NCBI RefSeq assembly: GCF_015230015.1
Contig: NZ_JAAKZC010000002.1
Coordinates: 1-64,000 of the forward strand
Direction: 5' to 3'
Length of the DNA stretch: 64,000 nt
Source: Campylobacter concisus
GTDB taxonomy: Bacteria; Campylobacterota; Campylobacteria; Campylobacterales; Campylobacteraceae
Part shown: piece after piece, positions 34,172 through 56,285 of the stretch
Layout: each line of letters opens with the position of its first letter
Numbering within the stretch: the stretch's first letter is position 1
Translations under genes and position numbers: made by a program
Notes under the pieces: model-generated
The model's input: only the letters and a program-made list of their open reading frames with translations
What the model was told of the DNA's origin: nothing
Databases searched by the model: none

Positions 34172-34346
34172 TGTTTATCCTTTTTGAAAAAATTTGATTT
34201 TTAAGTAAATATCTATTGCCAATAATCTGCGAAAGATAAGCCTTGCTAATCTTTAAATGATCGCAAAGATCAGCCCTTGTTAAAGTTGTTTTAGTTGATA
34301 AAATTTCAAGGACTGAAAGAATAAGCTTGTAATGTATCTTTCGCAC
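34140..34346 (-). CDS. Small helix-turn-helix protein
   Basis: 68 residues with a helix-turn-helix pattern (T-R-A-D-L-C-D-H-L-K-I-S-K-A-Y-L-S-Q-I-I, about residues 23-42). GTG start overlapping the TAG of the recombinase gene (TAGTG). It probably regulates the virus operon. Confidence 0.7.
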   Translation of the reverse strand: MRKIHYKLILSVLEILSTKTTLTRADLCDHLKISKAYLSQIIGNRYLLKNQIFSKRINNGKKHSSING

Positions 34347-35302
34347 TAAATAGCCTTTATCTCAGCATGAAATGGAAACAAGCTTTTTAAATAGCGAACT
34401 ATCGCGCACATAACAGCAACAATAGCAACCATTTTCTTTTTACCATTAGCGATTAAACGATCATAACGTGCTTTAAATTTCTCATTAAAACGAACGGCGC
34501 ACAAAGCGGACATAAATAAAATACGTCTTATGTTGGAGCTACCCATTTTATTTATCTTTTGGCTTTTATACACGCTTGATCCACTTTGAAAAATTCTAGG
34601 GCTAAGACCGAGAAAACTAATGAACTGCTTTTCAGACTTATCACGATTAAAATGCAGTTGTGGGAATAAATTTAAAGCTAGATCGATGCCAAAGCCTTTA
34701 TTACTTTTAATAATTTCTTCGGTTTCAGGAATAGTTTTTTTAACAAGATCGAAAGCCAACTTTTGAAGCATAGATTGAAGCTTTGCGATCTCTTTTATAA
34801 GATTTTCTATAACGTCATCAATAACGCTATTATTTACATTTTTTTGAGATTGTTTAAAATTTTTAAGTTGAGTGTTAAGCTTTTGAAGTAAATTTAAAGT
34901 CGAATTGTAACTTTTAATTTGTAAATATTCGGCGTTATATTTATCAGGCAGGATTTCGCTTTTAAAGGTCCTAGCATAAACAGCCAAACCATAACTATCA
35001 CTTACATCAGTTTTTATAGTGCTAAGATGCTTTAAAAACAAAGAAGTCTTATATGGATTTGTAACGTTATATCTAATATTTAAATCAGATAGAGCCTTTT
35101 GAAGTGCTAAATGATAATTTGAAGTTGCTTCAAAAACAACTAAAATTTCATCATTTTTAAAACTATTAAAATAAACTTTAATAAGTTCATAATTGTTAGG
35201 CAGGGTTTCAAACTTAGCTTTTTCACTTGCGATAGAAGTTAAAAAACAAACGTCGATTTTATCTTTAGAAACATCAACACCGCAAAAAAACGCTTTTTTC
35301 AT
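34346..35302 (-). CDS. IS110-family (Piv/MooV-like) DEDD recombinase
   Basis: 318 residues, normal for the family. The N-terminal RuvC-like domain shows G-V-D-V-S-K-D-K-I-D-V (Asp near 9), V-F-E-A-T-S-N-Y-H (Glu near 59) and K-T-D-V-S-D-S-Y-G (Asp pair near 100). The C-terminal Transposase_20 domain shows F-L-G-L-S-P, a Q-S-G-S-S nucleophile-serine region, and G-S-S-N-I-R-R-I-L-F. Its stop overlaps the start of the HTH gene, so it is part of the virus operon rather than a stray insertion. IS110 enzymes act with bridge RNAs; Piv relatives integrate Neisseria filamentous phages. Confidence 0.9.
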   Translation of the reverse strand: MKKAFFCGVDVSKDKIDVCFLTSIASEKAKFETLPNNYELIKVYFNSFKNDEILVVFEATSNYHLALQKALSDLNIRYNVTNPYKTSLFLKHLSTIKTDVSDSYGLAVYARTFKSEILPDKYNAEYLQIKSYNSTLNLLQKLNTQLKNFKQSQKNVNNSVIDDVIENLIKEIAKLQSMLQKLAFDLVKKTIPETEEIIKSNKGFGIDLALNLFPQLHFNRDKSEKQFISFLGLSPRIFQSGSSVYKSQKINKMGSSNIRRILFMSALCAVRFNEKFKARYDRLIANGKKKMVAIVAVMCAIVRYLKSLFPFHAEIKAI

Positions 35303-48012: not shown

Positions 48013-48519
48013 TTGAACAAAAGACTTTTGCCAGCTCTAGTCGCCTTTGTCATTGCTATCATCATCGGTACCTTCTTTTTTTCAAAAGATGGTGGCGAGG
48101 CAAATAAAAACGCTCAAATTTTACTTGAGCAGCTTAATAAAGAGGGGCAAAAGAGCCAGAGTCTTGCAGAAAATGGCTCATACACCTCAAAAGATGAGGT
48201 CGCACTTTATATCTATAAATTTAACAAGCTACCAAAGAATTTCATAACCAAAAAAGAGGCACTTGAACTTGGCTGGGACGCAAAAAGCGGAAATTTATGG
48301 CAGATAAGCGGCGGCAAAAGCATCGGCGGGGATAGATTTTCAAACCGAGAAAAGAGGCTGCCTGAGGCTGATGGTAGAAAGTGGTTTGAGTGCGATGTAA
48401 ATTATAATGGCGGCAGACGCGGCGCTGAGAGAATTTTATATTCAAATGACGGACTTATCTACTACACGCCTGATCACTACGAGCATTTTTACCTGCTTTA
48501 TGAGAAGAGGATGCAATGA
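48013..48519 (+). CDS. Barnase-type ribonuclease with N-terminal membrane/export segment
   Basis: 168 residues, TTG start. A hydrophobic segment (about 5-24) anchors or exports the protein. The rest matches barnase: V-A-L-Y-I-Y-K-F-N-K-L-P-K-N-F-I-T, G-N-L-W, K-S-I-G-G-D-R-F-S-N-R-E, W-F-E-C-D-V-N-Y (catalytic Glu), G-R-R-G-A-E-R-I-L-Y (Arg) and D-H-Y-E-H-F (His). It would degrade RNA and is paired with a barstar-like inhibitor 4 bases overlapped downstream. The pair sits between upp and mqnA, neighbours in C. jejuni as I recall. Confidence 0.88.
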   Translation: MNKRLLPALVAFVIAIIIGTFFFSKDGGEANKNAQILLEQLNKEGQKSQSLAENGSYTSKDEVALYIYKFNKLPKNFITKKEALELGWDAKSGNLWQISGGKSIGGDRFSNREKRLPEADGRKWFECDVNYNGGRRGAERILYSNDGLIYYTPDHYEHFYLLYEKRMQ

Positions 48520-48788
48520 AAATCGTGATCTTAGATGCTAAAAAAATGCTCGAAAAAGAGAAGATGCATGAGTATTTTGCAAAGAAATTTGACCTGCCAG
48601 AGTACTACGGCAAAAATTTAGACGCGCTCTTTGACTGTCTTTGCGAGATAAATGAGCCAACGCTTATAAAGCTAAAAAATGAAAATGCTTTGGATAGTGC
48701 CACAAAAGAGAGCTTAACTCAGCTATTTCGCGACGTTTGCAACGAAAATGAGCTGGTTAAATTTGAGCTTGTAAAAGATAAAAGATGA
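48516..48788 (+). CDS. Barstar-like ribonuclease inhibitor
   Basis: 90 residues. F-D-L-P-E-Y-Y-G-K-N-L-D-A-L-F-D-C-L is the barstar signature with the acidic residues that plug the RNase active site. ATGA overlap with the ribonuclease gene ensures matched synthesis. It also overlaps mqnA by 4 bases. Confidence 0.9.
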   Translation: MKIVILDAKKMLEKEKMHEYFAKKFDLPEYYGKNLDALFDCLCEINEPTLIKLKNENALDSATKESLTQLFRDVCNENELVKFELVKDKR

Positions 48789-49672: not shown

Positions 49673-51712
49673 TTACACTCCCCAGCCAAGTTTTTCTCGT
49701 TTTGTCTTCATATCAGCTACGATATTTTCAGCAAGTGCGACAGGATCAAGATTTACTACCATTTTTGAGCCAAGGATCGGCAATGTACCATTTGCCATAA
49801 ATTCTTCAACATTTTTTGAGCCTTGAACTGGGGCAAAGACGCAGTGGTAAGATGAAATTCCAAGTAGTCTAAAGCCAAGTGCGGCATCTATGCCCTTTTC
49901 ATTTGACCACTCAGGGCTTGAAAATGCGTATGGTAGGTCTTTGATGTTAGTGTCTAAGTTTTGACTAAGCGCATTAAACATTGCTGAAGCCCTAGCATTA
50001 TCCAAGCACTCGCCCATGTGCCAGATCGGTGGGATCTTATAAGGGGCTAAAAATTCTCTCAAGCTATCGCCGCAGTATTCAAGCGCATTTGCATTGCAAA
50101 GTCCTGTTTTTAGTAGTGGAAATGAGGCACAGCCGTTTGTCATGATTAAGACATTGTTTTTTAGAAGTGTTCTAGCTACGTTTACGACAGCTTTTTCATA
50201 AACTACGCGTGGATTTGAGCAGCCGACTAAATTTACAAGTCCAAGTATCTTGCCCTCTTTTATCGCATCAGCGATAACCTGCGTTGAGCCAAAAATTTTA
50301 TTTACATTTTCTAGTGAAAAGCCCATTTTAGCTTCGACTTCGTATTGCGGGATATGCACTGGTATGCCTTTTCTAGCTTCATGGCTCTCAAGCGCTCTAT
50401 ATAAAATTTTCTCTGCGATCTCGTGAATTTCACTCATATTTGAGTGATGATGATCAAAACCGATGTGCTCAGCTCCAGGAAGTCTTGCAGAGTCGCTTGT
50501 AGTGATAACTGTCGTTTTAAAGCACCTTGCTACCTCCATAACGGTAGGATAGACATCTTGCACGTCAGCTAGCCAAAGATCAAGCGCTCCTGTGCCAACG
50601 ACAAGCTCTGCGCCAACTGCATTTGAAAGTGGTATAACGCCGTCATAGCGATACATAGCCGAAAGTCCGTTGCAGCAAACACCATAAAACTGAATACCTA
50701 AAGCGCCCTTCTCTTTAGCTAAATTTTGAAATTTCTCGCTCTTGCCAAGCTTAACGACGACACTTACTAAAAGTGGAGAGTGTCCGTGAAGCGCGATATT
50801 TACGTAGCCTTTTTTGATAGCGCCTAAATTTATCTTAGAGTCATTTAGCTTTGGCAGACCAAATAGACAATCCATCGCAATAGACGTGCCAAGCGTGCTT
50901 GACCAAGCATAAGCTAGACCTGTGCGGAAAAACTGCTTCATGACATTTCGCCAGTCGCCATCTGTGCCTGTGCTTGTTCTATGAAGGCTCTCTGTAACCT
51001 CGTGATAGACGCCTATTGGCAAGATATCAAGCTTTTTCCACACCTCTTGACGCTCTTTTGGAGCAAAGGTCTTTATAGCTTTATGCTCTTGGGGCAATGT
51101 GCGAGATAGATCTTCAAGCAAGATATCAGCGATCTGCGAGGCAAGCTCGTTTATGCTTTTGCTCTCATCAAGTCCAAAAGCCTTTGCAACTGCACGCACT
51201 TTCTCTTCGCCTTCTATTGGGATATTTAGCTTGCCAGTTGCTGCGTTTTTAAGAGCTAGCATATTTTCTCTGCCTCTTGCGCCGTGAGCTGCAGCACCGC
51301 CAGCTACGTGACGGAGTAAATTTCTAGCCACGATGACGTCTGCATCGGCACCGCACACGCCACGAGTAGCCTTTGACGTGATCTTACATGGCCCCATAAA
51401 GCAGATCTTACAGCAAATTCCAGCCATGCCAAAGGTGCATTGTGGCTTTTGCTTGTCAAATCTATCAAAAACAGTCTCGATCCCCATATCTTGCATTTTT
51501 AGGAGCATTTCGCTAACGGCTGGATCAGGTGTCTCTTCGATTACTTTTTGTTTATTTGGAAAGGTTTTTTTATAAAGTGAGATAGCATTTGAGTAGTCTG
51601 TAAATTCTGCCTCGTCTTTGTAGTCATAAAAGCCTTTTTCATTTGGCTTAGCCTCTTTATCAAGTCTGTATTTCTGGATCTTGATGCCTAAAATTTCGTC
51701 GTTTGTTTGCAT
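49673..51712 (-). CDS. CooS-type (carbon monoxide dehydrogenase-like) protein with altered C-cluster
   Basis: 679 residues. The D/B-cluster Cys are present (C92, C100, C101, C104, C109, C120). C-cluster ligands seen are His311 (H-G-H), Cys346/347, and Cys in V-G-C-S-N, T-N-G-C-A and H-M-G-E-C. The remaining expected Cys (Cys333 of Carboxydothermus CODH-II, Y-Q-C) is Asp386 (V-Q-D, codon GAT). The Lys563 position seems to be Leu, and the proton-relay His series after His143 is lost. CO oxidation by the usual route is doubtful. No cooC or cooF is nearby. It is divergent from the ABC transporter genes. Confidence 0.85.
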   Translation of the reverse strand: MQTNDEILGIKIQKYRLDKEAKPNEKGFYDYKDEAEFTDYSNAISLYKKTFPNKQKVIEETPDPAVSEMLLKMQDMGIETVFDRFDKQKPQCTFGMAGICCKICFMGPCKITSKATRGVCGADADVIVARNLLRHVAGGAAAHGARGRENMLALKNAATGKLNIPIEGEEKVRAVAKAFGLDESKSINELASQIADILLEDLSRTLPQEHKAIKTFAPKERQEVWKKLDILPIGVYHEVTESLHRTSTGTDGDWRNVMKQFFRTGLAYAWSSTLGTSIAMDCLFGLPKLNDSKINLGAIKKGYVNIALHGHSPLLVSVVVKLGKSEKFQNLAKEKGALGIQFYGVCCNGLSAMYRYDGVIPLSNAVGAELVVGTGALDLWLADVQDVYPTVMEVARCFKTTVITTSDSARLPGAEHIGFDHHHSNMSEIHEIAEKILYRALESHEARKGIPVHIPQYEVEAKMGFSLENVNKIFGSTQVIADAIKEGKILGLVNLVGCSNPRVVYEKAVVNVARTLLKNNVLIMTNGCASFPLLKTGLCNANALEYCGDSLREFLAPYKIPPIWHMGECLDNARASAMFNALSQNLDTNIKDLPYAFSSPEWSNEKGIDAALGFRLLGISSYHCVFAPVQGSKNVEEFMANGTLPILGSKMVVNLDPVALAENIVADMKTKREKLGWGV

Positions 51713-51865: not shown

Positions 51866-52783
51866 ATGACCAGGCGTTATGCTTTACAAATTTTAGGTTC
51901 TTTCTTGGCTCTTAGTAGCCAAAAAGCTCTAGCAAGCACTCCAAAGATCGGCGTAAAAATAGGCTTTGTGCCGATAAGCGATCATCTATGCATCATCGCT
52001 TCAAAGCTCTATAAAAGTGAAAATTTCATGATAGTGCCCATTAAATTTGCTAGCTGGGTTGATCTAGCTGAGGCGCTCAGGGCAGGGGCGATTGACGGGG
52101 CTTTTATGCTAGCTCCACTAGGTCTTATGCTAAGAGCAAATGGCGCAAAGATAAAGACAGTGCTATCAGCTCACAAAAATGGCTCAGCTCTTGTGGCTAG
52201 AAGCGACGTGACCGGTCTTAAGCAGCTTGCTGGCAAAAAGATCGCTGTGCCTTCAAAATTTAGCATGCACTATTTTTTACTTGATACGATCTTAAAGCGT
52301 GAAAATATGAGCGCAGATATCATCGAGATGGCGCCACCTGAGATGCCTTTTGCGCTTCTTAGTCATCAAATAGACGCTTACATCGTGGCTGAGCCATTTG
52401 GGCAAATGGCGGTAAATTTTAAAGGCAGGGCGAAAAATTTACTCTTTTCAAAAGATATAAAGCCAAACCACATCTGCTGCACGCTAAATTTTCAAGAAGA
52501 AATTCTCTCAAAGCCTTATTTTAACGAGCTTTTAGAAGCTTTTAAGCAAGCAGCAAGCTTTATCACAAAAGATCACGAAACAAGCGCACTTTTAGGCAAT
52601 GAGATCTTAAGCCAAAATGCAAATTTATTAAAGTTAGTGCTTGATAAAGAGATCGTAAGCTACGATGATCTAAGCCTAAAAGCAGAAGAGCTAGAGGAGC
52701 TAAAAGAATTTTTAATCAGCAAAAATTTAGGCAATCAAAAACTAGCAAATTTAGAGATAAACTCATACTTGGAGCAAAGATGA
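51866..52783 (+). CDS. NitT/TauT-type ABC transporter substrate-binding protein
   Basis: 305 residues. The N-terminus M-T-R-R-Y-A-L-Q looks like a twin-arginine signal. The body follows NrtA/SsuA-type binding proteins (A-L-R-A-G-A-I-D-G-A-F, G-K-K-I-A-V-P-S, A-Y-I-V-A-E-P-F-G). The substrate may be a sulfonate, sulfate ester, nitrate or similar anion. ATGA overlap with the permease gene. Nearby AssT suggests sulfur compounds, as inference. Confidence 0.85.
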   Translation: MTRRYALQILGSFLALSSQKALASTPKIGVKIGFVPISDHLCIIASKLYKSENFMIVPIKFASWVDLAEALRAGAIDGAFMLAPLGLMLRANGAKIKTVLSAHKNGSALVARSDVTGLKQLAGKKIAVPSKFSMHYFLLDTILKRENMSADIIEMAPPEMPFALLSHQIDAYIVAEPFGQMAVNFKGRAKNLLFSKDIKPNHICCTLNFQEEILSKPYFNELLEAFKQAASFITKDHETSALLGNEILSQNANLLKLVLDKEIVSYDDLSLKAEELEELKEFLISKNLGNQKLANLEINSYLEQR

Positions 52784-53505
52784 AATACTTTTTTCAAATT
52801 CTCGTTTTAGCCCTAGCTTTGCTTATCTGGCAAGCTTTTAGTGGAGACTTGGTACCAAGCGTAAAAGAGGTGGTAGGTGCATTTTTCGAGCTTGCAAAAA
52901 GCGGCAAACTGCTTCTTGGCGTCACTGACTCACTCATTAGATACGTCATAGGACTTGCCATTGGCTCGCTTGTTGCGGTTTTGGTTGGACTTATATTTGG
53001 ACTTTTTCCAAAATTTGCAAATGCATTTGAACCGCTTATCGGACTTTTGCGTCCTATTTCGCCGATTGCGTGGATACCTTTGATAGTCCTTGCCTTTGGT
53101 ATCGGCGATAAACCGACCATTTTCATCATCGCTTATGCGATATTTTTCCCTATGCTGCTTCTTACTATAAGTGCCGTAAAAAGCGTGCCAAATGAGCTCG
53201 TTTTAGCGGCTCGTGGCTTTGGAGCTAGCAAAATGCAAATAATCACTGGCGTCATCATGCCAGCAAGTCTTTTTAGCATCATCTCAGGGCTAAAGCTAGC
53301 AGCGAGCCTTGCTTGGATAAATTTAGTAGTTGGTGAGATGGTTGGAGCTCAAAGCGGGCTAGGATATCTCATAATAGACGCTAGAAACCAGCTTAGGATA
53401 GATAGCGTAATGGCGGTGATTTTTGTGATCGGCGTGATAGGCATCGTGATAAATTTCATCTTTTCGCTCATTGAAAGATACGCAGGAGAAAGGCTTGGAC
53501 GATGA
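52780..53505 (+). CDS. NitT/TauT-type ABC transporter permease
   Basis: 241 residues with about six membrane helices and the permease coupling motif A-A-R-G-F-G-A-S-K-M near residue 147 (EAA-type loop), plus P-I-S-P-I-A-W-I-P-L-I near 92. It overlaps both neighbours by 4 bases, so the three proteins form one transporter operon. Confidence 0.9.
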   Translation: MKYFFQILVLALALLIWQAFSGDLVPSVKEVVGAFFELAKSGKLLLGVTDSLIRYVIGLAIGSLVAVLVGLIFGLFPKFANAFEPLIGLLRPISPIAWIPLIVLAFGIGDKPTIFIIAYAIFFPMLLLTISAVKSVPNELVLAARGFGASKMQIITGVIMPASLFSIISGLKLAASLAWINLVVGEMVGAQSGLGYLIIDARNQLRIDSVMAVIFVIGVIGIVINFIFSLIERYAGERLGR

Positions 53506-54245
53506 TAAAGATAAAAAATTTAACCAAATCTTTTGGGGACGCCAAAATTTTAAAAGGGATAAATTTAGAGATAAAGCAGAATGAATTTTGCGTTTTGCTT
53601 GGCGGCAGTGGCTCTGGCAAGACGACACTTTTAAACATCCTAAGTGGCACGAGCGAGCTTAGTAGCGGTGAAATTTCAATGCAAAATAAAATTTATACAA
53701 AGAAAATTTCACTAGACAAATCGCGCCAGATCATCACTCAGACCTACTCGCTAATGCCATGGCTAAGCGCAAAAGACAACATCAAATTTGCCCTAAAATG
53801 CTCTGGCATAAAGGATAAATTTGAACAAGAAAAGAGAGCTAGCAAATTTCTGGAGCTTGTTAGCCTTTCTCACAAGGCCGAGCTCTTCCCGCACTCGCTA
53901 AGTGGCGGTCAAAAGCAGCGTGTCGCCATCGCAAGGGCACTTAGCTTAAGCCCTGAGGTGCTCTTTTTAGACGAGCCATTTTCTGCGCTTGATCCAATAA
54001 CAAGGACAAATTTACAAAAAAGCTTAAAGCAGATGTCAAAGACTCAAACCACTATCTTTGTCACGCATGATATCGATGAGGCGCTATTTTTGGCTGATAA
54101 GATCGTGATCTTACACGATGGTGTGATCATAAAAGAGATAATCAATCCAAATTTTGGCGTGCATGATCTAAAGTATTTTGAGCTAAAAGCTAAGATTTTT
54201 GATCTCATAAATGGCGAAGATAACGAGGTTGAATACGCTATTTAA
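53502..54245 (+). CDS. NitT/TauT-type ABC transporter ATP-binding protein
   Basis: 247 residues. Walker A G-G-S-G-S-G-K-T-T near residue 38, signature L-S-G-G-Q-K-Q-R near 129, Walker B V-L-F-L-D-E-P near 152, and the His switch V-T-H-D near 185. It powers uptake with the two preceding proteins. Confidence 0.95.
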   Translation: MIKIKNLTKSFGDAKILKGINLEIKQNEFCVLLGGSGSGKTTLLNILSGTSELSSGEISMQNKIYTKKISLDKSRQIITQTYSLMPWLSAKDNIKFALKCSGIKDKFEQEKRASKFLELVSLSHKAELFPHSLSGGQKQRVAIARALSLSPEVLFLDEPFSALDPITRTNLQKSLKQMSKTQTTIFVTHDIDEALFLADKIVILHDGVIIKEIINPNFGVHDLKYFELKAKIFDLINGEDNEVEYAI

Positions 54246-54449: not shown

Positions 54450-56285
54450 ATGAGAAAGACTTTGAGTTGTGTTGCATTAGCCTCTGTGCTTTGTTCGAGC
54501 GCTTTTGCGATAGGCGGTCCAAGCGGGGCTAAACTTGACTACGCTATCACTGGAGCTATCGGCGAAGTAGTGGTAAATCCATACGACACAGCGCCTCTTA
54601 CTGCAGTCATCAAAAATGGTGGCTATACACTAAGCAACGCTAAGGTCACTATCGTGCCAAAACAAGGTGGTCAAACTATAAGCTACAAAGTGGCTGACAA
54701 GCATCTTCGCACACATGGCGGCATCCCAGTTTTTGGTATGTACCCTGACTATCAAAACACCGTTGAGGTCGAGTACGACAAGAGCTACAAGGGCAAGACT
54801 GAGCATATAAAAGAGAGCTATAAAATTTATGCCCCAGCTATCTATCTAGAGAGCGCTGGCACGCCAAATCAAAAGGGCGCGCTATTTGACAAGATCGAGG
54901 TTACCAAGCCTGCGAGCGCTAAATTTGCAAACCGCCTCTACTATGTAAATAACTTTGTCAATAAAACAGGCAAGGGCACAAAAGTCGTTTGGAACAACCC
55001 AGCTGGCGGTGCGATCGAGTGGAACTACAGCCCAAATAACTTCATCCTTGATACAAAAGGCGAGGTTAGATGGTACCTTGAGCCAAGTAAAATTTACGAC
55101 CTAAAACAGCCATTTCACGCTGGCGTTATGATGGGCTTTAAGCAAAATGACGACGGCGCTATGACTTGGGGATATGGCCAAAGATACGCAAAATACGACA
55201 TCATGGGTAGAGAAATTTTCAACCGCGAGCTACCAGCTAGCTACAACGACTTCTCTCACTCAATGGACGTAGCACAAAACGGACACTACTTCTTGCGCGT
55301 AGCAAATGCCGACTATAAAAGGGCTGATGGCAAAAACGTAAGAACAGTGCGCGACGTCATTGTTGAGCTTGACCGCGACGGCAACGTAGTTGATGACTTT
55401 AGACTATATGAAATCCTAGATCCTTACCGCGACATCGTGCTAAAAACGCTCGATCAAGGCGCAGTTTGCTTAAACATAGACGCTAAAAAAGCAGGTCACA
55501 CAGCAAGCTCTGATGAACTTCAGTCTATGGATACGCACGATCAGTGGGGCGACATAGTTGGCGCTGGTCCCGGACGTAACTGGGCGCACGTAAATAGCGT
55601 GGATTATGACCCAAGCGATGATAGTATCATCATCTCAAGCCGCCACCAAGACGCAGTTATAAAGATCGGCCGTGACAAACAAGTAAAATGGATCATGGGC
55701 GCTCACAAGGGCTGGAGCGATAAATTTAAAGATAAGCTTCTTCAGCCAGTTGATAGCAAAGGCAACAAGATCGTCTGCGAAGATGAGTACTCAAAATGCC
55801 CAGGATACGATAGCGACAAAGGTGGCTTTGACTGGCAATGGACGCAACATACGGCATTTAGGATAGATAGCAAGTCTAAAAAAGGCGAAATTTATCTAAG
55901 TGTCTTTGACAACGGCGACACAAGAGGCATGGAGCAACCAGCCATCGCTGGCATGAAGTACTCTCGTGCGGTCGTTTATAAGATCGATGAGAACAAAAAG
56001 ACCATTGAGCAGATCTGGGAGTACGGCAAAGAGCGCGGTAAAGAGTGGTATAGCTCAGTTACAAGCCTTACGCAGTATCAAGATGACCTTGATAGTATTA
56101 TGGTCTACTCAGCCGTTGCTGGCATGCAGTTTGACATCGCAAAAGGTCGCCCAGTAGGACTTCCTAGCCCACACATCGATGAGTTTGAGTGGGGCGCAAA
56201 AGAGCCTAGCATCGAGATAAAGATGACAAATGCAATGGGCTATCAGGCATTTCCATTTAGCTTGCAAAAAGCTTTTGAAAAGTAA
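54450..56285 (+). CDS. assT: Periplasmic arylsulfate sulfotransferase
   Basis: 611 residues with a signal peptide (about 1-20, C-S-S-A-F-A cleavage). AssT enzymes move sulfate between phenolic compounds through a sulfated His. The family stretches H-D-Q-W-G-D-I-V-G, N-W-A-H-V-N-S-V-D-Y, S-S-R-H-Q-D-A and W-T-Q-H-T-A are present, and a Cys pair (C-E-D-E-Y-S-K-C) could form the known disulfide. AAGGAG ribosome site. No dsbL/dsbI partner genes are in view. Confidence 0.93.
   Translation: MRKTLSCVALASVLCSSAFAIGGPSGAKLDYAITGAIGEVVVNPYDTAPLTAVIKNGGYTLSNAKVTIVPKQGGQTISYKVADKHLRTHGGIPVFGMYPDYQNTVEVEYDKSYKGKTEHIKESYKIYAPAIYLESAGTPNQKGALFDKIEVTKPASAKFANRLYYVNNFVNKTGKGTKVVWNNPAGGAIEWNYSPNNFILDTKGEVRWYLEPSKIYDLKQPFHAGVMMGFKQNDDGAMTWGYGQRYAKYDIMGREIFNRELPASYNDFSHSMDVAQNGHYFLRVANADYKRADGKNVRTVRDVIVELDRDGNVVDDFRLYEILDPYRDIVLKTLDQGAVCLNIDAKKAGHTASSDELQSMDTHDQWGDIVGAGPGRNWAHVNSVDYDPSDDSIIISSRHQDAVIKIGRDKQVKWIMGAHKGWSDKFKDKLLQPVDSKGNKIVCEDEYSKCPGYDSDKGGFDWQWTQHTAFRIDSKSKKGEIYLSVFDNGDTRGMEQPAIAGMKYSRAVVYKIDENKKTIEQIWEYGKERGKEWYSSVTSLTQYQDDLDSIMVYSAVAGMQFDIAKGRPVGLPSPHIDEFEWGAKEPSIEIKMTNAMGYQAFPFSLQKAFEK

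Follow-up and report, generated by a model that had tools for sequence, protein, structure and literature searches.

Group B-2 of clade B, within the Ni-CODH/CooS family of carbon monoxide dehydrogenase (CODH) catalytic subunits, is defined by a residue pattern in which the second C-cluster cysteine is an aspartate and by accompanying NitT/TauT transporters, for which a role in nickel import has been proposed (Inoue et al., 2019; PMC6344411). According to a human gut survey, clade B accounts for 493 of 1,380 gut cooS genes, and Campylobacter cooS occurs with COG0715-COG0600-COG1116 in 37 of 40 genomes (PMC11338639). Gut bacteria commonly carry CooS of clade B, yet the clade lacks a characterized member (PMC11338639; PMC13056359): a 2026 survey records that no member has been purified or characterized, that the function of the clade could not be deduced, and that a degenerate function is one possibility (PMC13056359). 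A different ligand exchange is known from CooS-V of Carboxydothermus hydrogenoformans (clade D-1; PDB 7B7Q), a hybrid-cluster protein that has the CODH fold and one C-cluster cysteine replaced by a carboxylate; it departs at Cys295, not at Cys333 (PMC9311411).

Here we analyze a cooS locus in a 64,000-nucleotide stretch of Campylobacter concisus (contig NZ_JAAKZC010000002.1, positions 1 to 64,000; hereafter, the window). A preliminary description of the window had reported the CooS-type protein and the loss of one cysteine ligand, but it did not include the ABC importer that adjoins the gene. The features discussed are as follows.

49673..51712, minus strand: cooS-type gene, a clade B (group B-2) Ni-CODH homologue of 679 aa, assigned from protein family models, tree and alignments
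50557-50555, minus strand: Asp386 (codon GAT) at the CODH-II Cys333 ligand position, from alignment and codon
51713..51865, no strand: divergent intergenic region of 153 bp between cooS and the importer genes, read from the sequence and the presumed site of both promoters
51866..52783, plus strand: solute-binding protein (SBP) of the NitT/TauT/SsuA family (NMT1_2), from Pfam, family scores and its match to 3UN6 (5.6e-28)
52780..53505, plus strand: ABC permease of the importer, from family matches and comparison of clade B loci
53502..54245, plus strand: ABC ATPase of the importer, from family matches and comparison of clade B loci

The cooS open reading frame is intact, and its product was confirmed as CooS-type by the NCBIfam model for the anaerobic CO dehydrogenase catalytic subunit (TIGR01702; 532 bits against a cut-off of 478) and by the Prismane/CODH Pfam family (PF03063; 468 bits). 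The closest solved chains are CODHs, led by that of Thermococcus AM4 (6T7J; 448 bits), with the CooS-V structure 7B7Q lower (309 bits). An AlphaFold model (mean pLDDT 83.6, pTM 0.86) superposes on CODHs over roughly 630 alignment columns at about 2 Å rmsd. The protein shares the fold, the D- and B-cluster ligands, most C-cluster ligands and the acid-base pair with 6T7J and with CODH-II and CODH-IV (clade F) of C. hydrogenoformans; all three differ from it in having Cys333, and identity in the structure match is 33–36%. A pseudogene or sequencing error is excluded, as orthologues 79–99% identical carry the same residue and dN/dS relative to the 79% identical orthologue is approximately 0.08.

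Residues were numbered by alignment with CODH-II among approximately 170 CooS proteins, an alignment that reproduces every published CODH-II ligand number. The D-cluster cysteines C39 and C47 of CODH-II correspond to C92 and C100, and the B-cluster cysteines C48, C51, C56 and C70 to C101, C104, C109 and C120; the spacing C92-X7-C100-C101 is that of a type II D-cluster (Cys-X7-13-Cys-Cys). Five of the six C-cluster ligands are likewise retained (H261, C295, C446, C476 and C526 as H311, C347, C498, C528 and C569), among them the nickel ligand Cys526 and the pendant-iron ligands His261 and Cys295. The sixth, Cys333, is Asp386, so that one of the five C-cluster cysteines by which a functional Ni,Fe-CODH is recognized is replaced. 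In CODH-II, Cys333 holds a cubane iron, not the nickel or the pendant iron.

This much agrees with the preliminary description, which had listed the retained cysteines and the aspartate correctly and had also noted that most proton-channel histidines are gone: H96, H99 and H102 are R146, E149 and L152, with H96 being histidine in 70 of 86 clade members. The acid-base residue His93 is nevertheless kept, as His143. The reported replacement of Lys563 by leucine, in contrast, was an alignment error, since the lysine is present as Lys606 in the motif SNEK; neither it nor the histidine varies among the 86 clade members compared. A nearby cysteine filling the vacated ligand position had been named as grounds for abandoning the finding; none compensates, and Asp386 stands. 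C397 (position C344 of CODH-II) and C539 were considered and rejected as stand-ins because both occur in relatives that still have Cys333. No solved structure in which Cys333 is substituted came up in the analysis. Residues 420–425 (DHHHSN) form a histidine-rich loop that hardly varies within the Asp-type clade and is missing from the two non-B Campylobacterota CooS proteins compared.

The locus matches the published definition of group B-2 (PMC6344411) in its aspartate at the second C-cluster cysteine, its type II D-cluster, its retained His/Lys pair, its adjoining NitT/TauT importer and the lack of a histidine-rich tail (there is no histidine in the 59 N-terminal residues or in the C-terminal tail). 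We found no departure from that definition; the importer genes are here divergent from cooS. The gene set is also that of the Campylobacter CooS group with an ABC transporter in the gut survey, whose available portion does not discuss the aspartate (PMC11338639). As Inoue et al. (2019) define the same pattern, the exchange was already described, and its detection in the window is a correct, independent rediscovery of a published variant.

Homologues were gathered from 298 genomes belonging to the phylum and from a collection of genomes at species level, of whose 253 loci 80 were retained. The clade B label was assigned by residue signature and importer, not by named clade B reference sequences. 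Among 86 aligned clade members, 85 have Asp at the Cys333 position and one has Glu, and the other cluster ligands and both acid-base residues are invariant; the Asp386 equivalent is present in both the 99% and the 79% identical orthologues. Phylogenetic placement, which the preliminary description had called for, puts the protein in the Asp-type clade B branch: in a 73-row maximum-likelihood CooS tree, the 30 Asp-type rows form one clade (100% SH-aLRT), whose sister consists of three rows that keep Cys333 and resemble published group B-4 (L204, L205 and L207). One Asp clade with a Cys-keeping sister is explained by a single ligand change, and from these sequences we conclude that the Cys333-to-Asp exchange was a single event at the clade's base and was retained thereafter. 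A cubane ligand exchanged a single time and then fixed, alongside surviving relatives that keep the cysteine, amounts to a clean natural experiment on what a C-cluster can do.

Clade B cooS is sparse in the genus (3 of 48 genomes), and the Campylobacterota members branch at several separate points of the tree, interspersed with Bacillota and others, a scatter that fits repeated lateral transfer. No second CooS scored above the family cut-off in 21 of 22 clade B genomes. Most Bacillota members have histidine-rich N-terminal tails in the clade alignment, and a clade B protein encoded in a different genus of the host's family (L027:8463-11183) has a 287-residue N-terminal extension containing 24 histidines.

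The importer (51866-54245) is of the NitT/TauT/Ssu type and is transcribed divergently from cooS. Of 89 clade B loci, 72 have a homologue of its SBP close to cooS; of 62 loci from the other CooS clades, none does. The 17 clade B loci in which it was not seen were judged within the flanking DNA examined, where some contigs end. The importer takes three placements relative to clade B cooS (downstream, upstream and divergent). It is present in the three Cys-keeping sister loci as well, and the link to the importer therefore predates the aspartate change. In the genome with the 79% identical orthologue (G031), cooS and importer form a conserved block at a different chromosomal site, and the 153-bp intergenic region is conserved with the near-identical locus L024 and partly with L025. 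The best solved relative of the SBP is 3UN6, and its best-scoring named families bind sulfonate and taurine, not nickel; the importer proteins reach the curated cut-off of none of the named NCBIfam transporter families listed. An arylsulfate sulfotransferase gene (54450-56285) directly follows the importer and is present in L024; it was rejected as a functional partner, as it is not next to the importer in L025.

No cooC, cooF, hydrogenase or acetyl-CoA synthase (ACS) gene lies beside cooS. The preliminary description had reported as much for cooC and cooF at the locus, and a genome-wide CooC query adds only P-loop matches of approximately 50 residues (best, 24.7 bits). Beyond matches of that kind, CooC was not found in 15 clade B genomes (the host and 14 others), so the absence of cooC fits a property of clade B as a whole. 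The host genome encodes HypB, and therefore handles nickel. Loss of the histidine tail shows no clear pattern against the presence of HypB; some HypB-bearing genomes keep the tail.

The earlier suggestion that the protein is a CODH relative with an altered metal cluster is supported as a statement about sequence, and a reaction differing from that of CODH is plausible. Its further suggestion, a logic closer to that of hybrid cluster proteins (HCPs), is not supported: the cysteine exchanged in clade B is one that HCPs retain, and the one exchanged in HCPs is retained in clade B. In a joint MAFFT alignment, eight HCPs, including the host's own single HCP, carry Cys at 333 and Glu both at 561 and in the 295 region and lack His at 93, and the hybrid-cluster-type CooS proteins with the CooS-V signature have Cys333, Glu295, Glu561 and Tyr93, whereas the 679-aa CooS has Asp333, Cys295, Asn561 and His93. 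On this alignment we rejected an HCP-type site. HCP, a hydroxylamine reductase, is a distant relative; the 679-aa CooS reaches 26.5 bits against a curated HCP model with a cut-off of 360.8. A CooS–HCP profile comparison (hhalign probability 97%) covered only the C-terminal part, and for this reason the pairing of positions 295 and 333 rests on the MAFFT alignment and Inoue et al. (2019). CooS-V keeps Cys333 and has Glu at Cys295, and D-1-type relatives also have Tyr93 and Glu561; clade B mirrors that case, with the other ligand exchanged on the same scaffold.

We consider it probable that the 679-aa protein is a clade B (B-2) Ni-CODH/CooS member with a CODH-type cluster that has one carboxylate ligand, and that it works with the importer on a small substrate. 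This reading draws on the residue mapping, the conservation across the clade, the single-branch origin, the absence of an HCP signature and dN/dS of about 0.08, together with the match between the AlphaFold model and CODHs, the SBP counts (72/89 versus 0/62), the conserved block in G031, the lack of another CooS in 21 of 22 genomes and of CooC in 15, and the pattern described by Inoue et al. (2019). The pocket would hold a CODH-type, probably nickel-containing Fe-S cluster with one carboxylate-ligated iron, which would not be an Fe/S/O hybrid cluster of the HCP type. Ligation by aspartate may make the bound iron more labile and shift the potential of the cluster. Electrons would come from a general donor of the cell and pass through the B/D relay, since no dedicated partner is encoded nearby. 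CooS and the importer would form one unit, in which the importer supplies either the substrate (a small anion or an organosulfur compound), the option that we favor, or the metal.

A conceivable but less likely alternative, proposed by Inoue et al. (2019), is a functional enzyme that oxidizes CO or reduces CO2 at a C-cluster with a carboxylate ligand and receives its nickel through the importer. The nickel ligand, the pendant-iron ligands and both acid-base residues are all kept, and the histidine-rich tails of most Bacillota members, HypB in the host and the tandem urease-type (nickel) genes that follow cooS in three Lachnoanaerobaculum species also speak for it. It is harder to reconcile with the 679-aa protein and its close kin, which lack the tail yet have the importer, with an SBP closest to sulfonate and taurine binders, and with a locus in which no gene for CooF, CooC, a hydrogenase or ACS adjoins cooS. 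Far less probable is an HCP-like reductase of hydroxylamine or NO with an Fe/S/O hybrid cluster, proposed by analogy with CooS-V. The exchange of one cluster cysteine for a carboxylate, as in CooS-V (PMC9311411), a Pfam family common to HCP and this protein, and the lack of CooC speak for such an enzyme, but the replaced position is the one that HCPs and CooS-V-type proteins keep, their Glu295 and Glu561 are here Cys and Asn while His93 is retained, and the genome already has an HCP of its own. That the protein is a degenerate CODH without catalytic function, as raised for clade B (PMC13056359), is about as improbable: one ligand is lost and maturation and electron-transfer genes are absent nearby, but dN/dS is close to 0.08, the remaining ligands and the acid-base residues do not vary among 86 members, Campylobacterota members have several separate placements in the tree, and the gene has been kept up with a linked importer.

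A weak lead comes from other genes near clade B cooS. In each of the three Cys-keeping sister loci, the gene immediately upstream of cooS belongs to the cysteine synthase family (L204:3583-4509, L205:6821-7780 and L207:6502-7476), and in L204 two cystathionine-family PLP genes follow downstream, after the importer. Cysteine synthase and cystathionine-family genes recur near Asp-type cooS also, and the available portion of the gut survey places cysteine synthase next to cooS in Megasphaera, the clade not being named there (PMC11338639). Cysteine/methionine genes are found near cooS in 14 of 89 clade B and 3 of 62 matched non-B loci (Fisher p ~0.04; p ~0.05 when the loci are reduced to 34 clusters at 85% identity). 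The enrichment was strong against genome-wide gene density but shrank against the matched loci, and on that account we treat the link as a hypothesis only. Speculatively, and at rather long odds, clade B CooS could be a low-potential reductase for the assimilation of sulfur (or of small anions): the importer would take up an organosulfur or C1-sulfur compound, sulfide would be released from it reductively at the Asp-modified cluster, and cysteine synthase and cystathionine-family enzymes would capture it. Such a function would give a textbook CO enzyme a nutrient-salvage branch.

Several other genes were observed around these loci. Two small proteins of approximately 100–130 aa each, which match no Pfam or NCBIfam family, adjoin cooS in about one third of clade B loci (L069:9957-10651 and about 30 others) and in none of the 62 control loci; none was seen in Campylobacter cooS loci. 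In L088, L089 and L094, from the three Lachnoanaerobaculum species, a urease-type operon, recognized from the starts of its sequences, follows clade B cooS in the same direction. A Band 7/SPFH gene lies between the neighboring gene and cooS in L024 (6372-7808) and is absent from the window. Within the window, adjoining genes encode a barnase-family ribonuclease (PF00545) and a barstar-family inhibitor (PF01337) at 48013-48788, the inhibitor being only 84% identical in L024, where most neighbors are 94–100% identical, and an IS110-family transposase gene (34346-35302) stands beside a run of minus-strand genes, two of them with no Pfam match.
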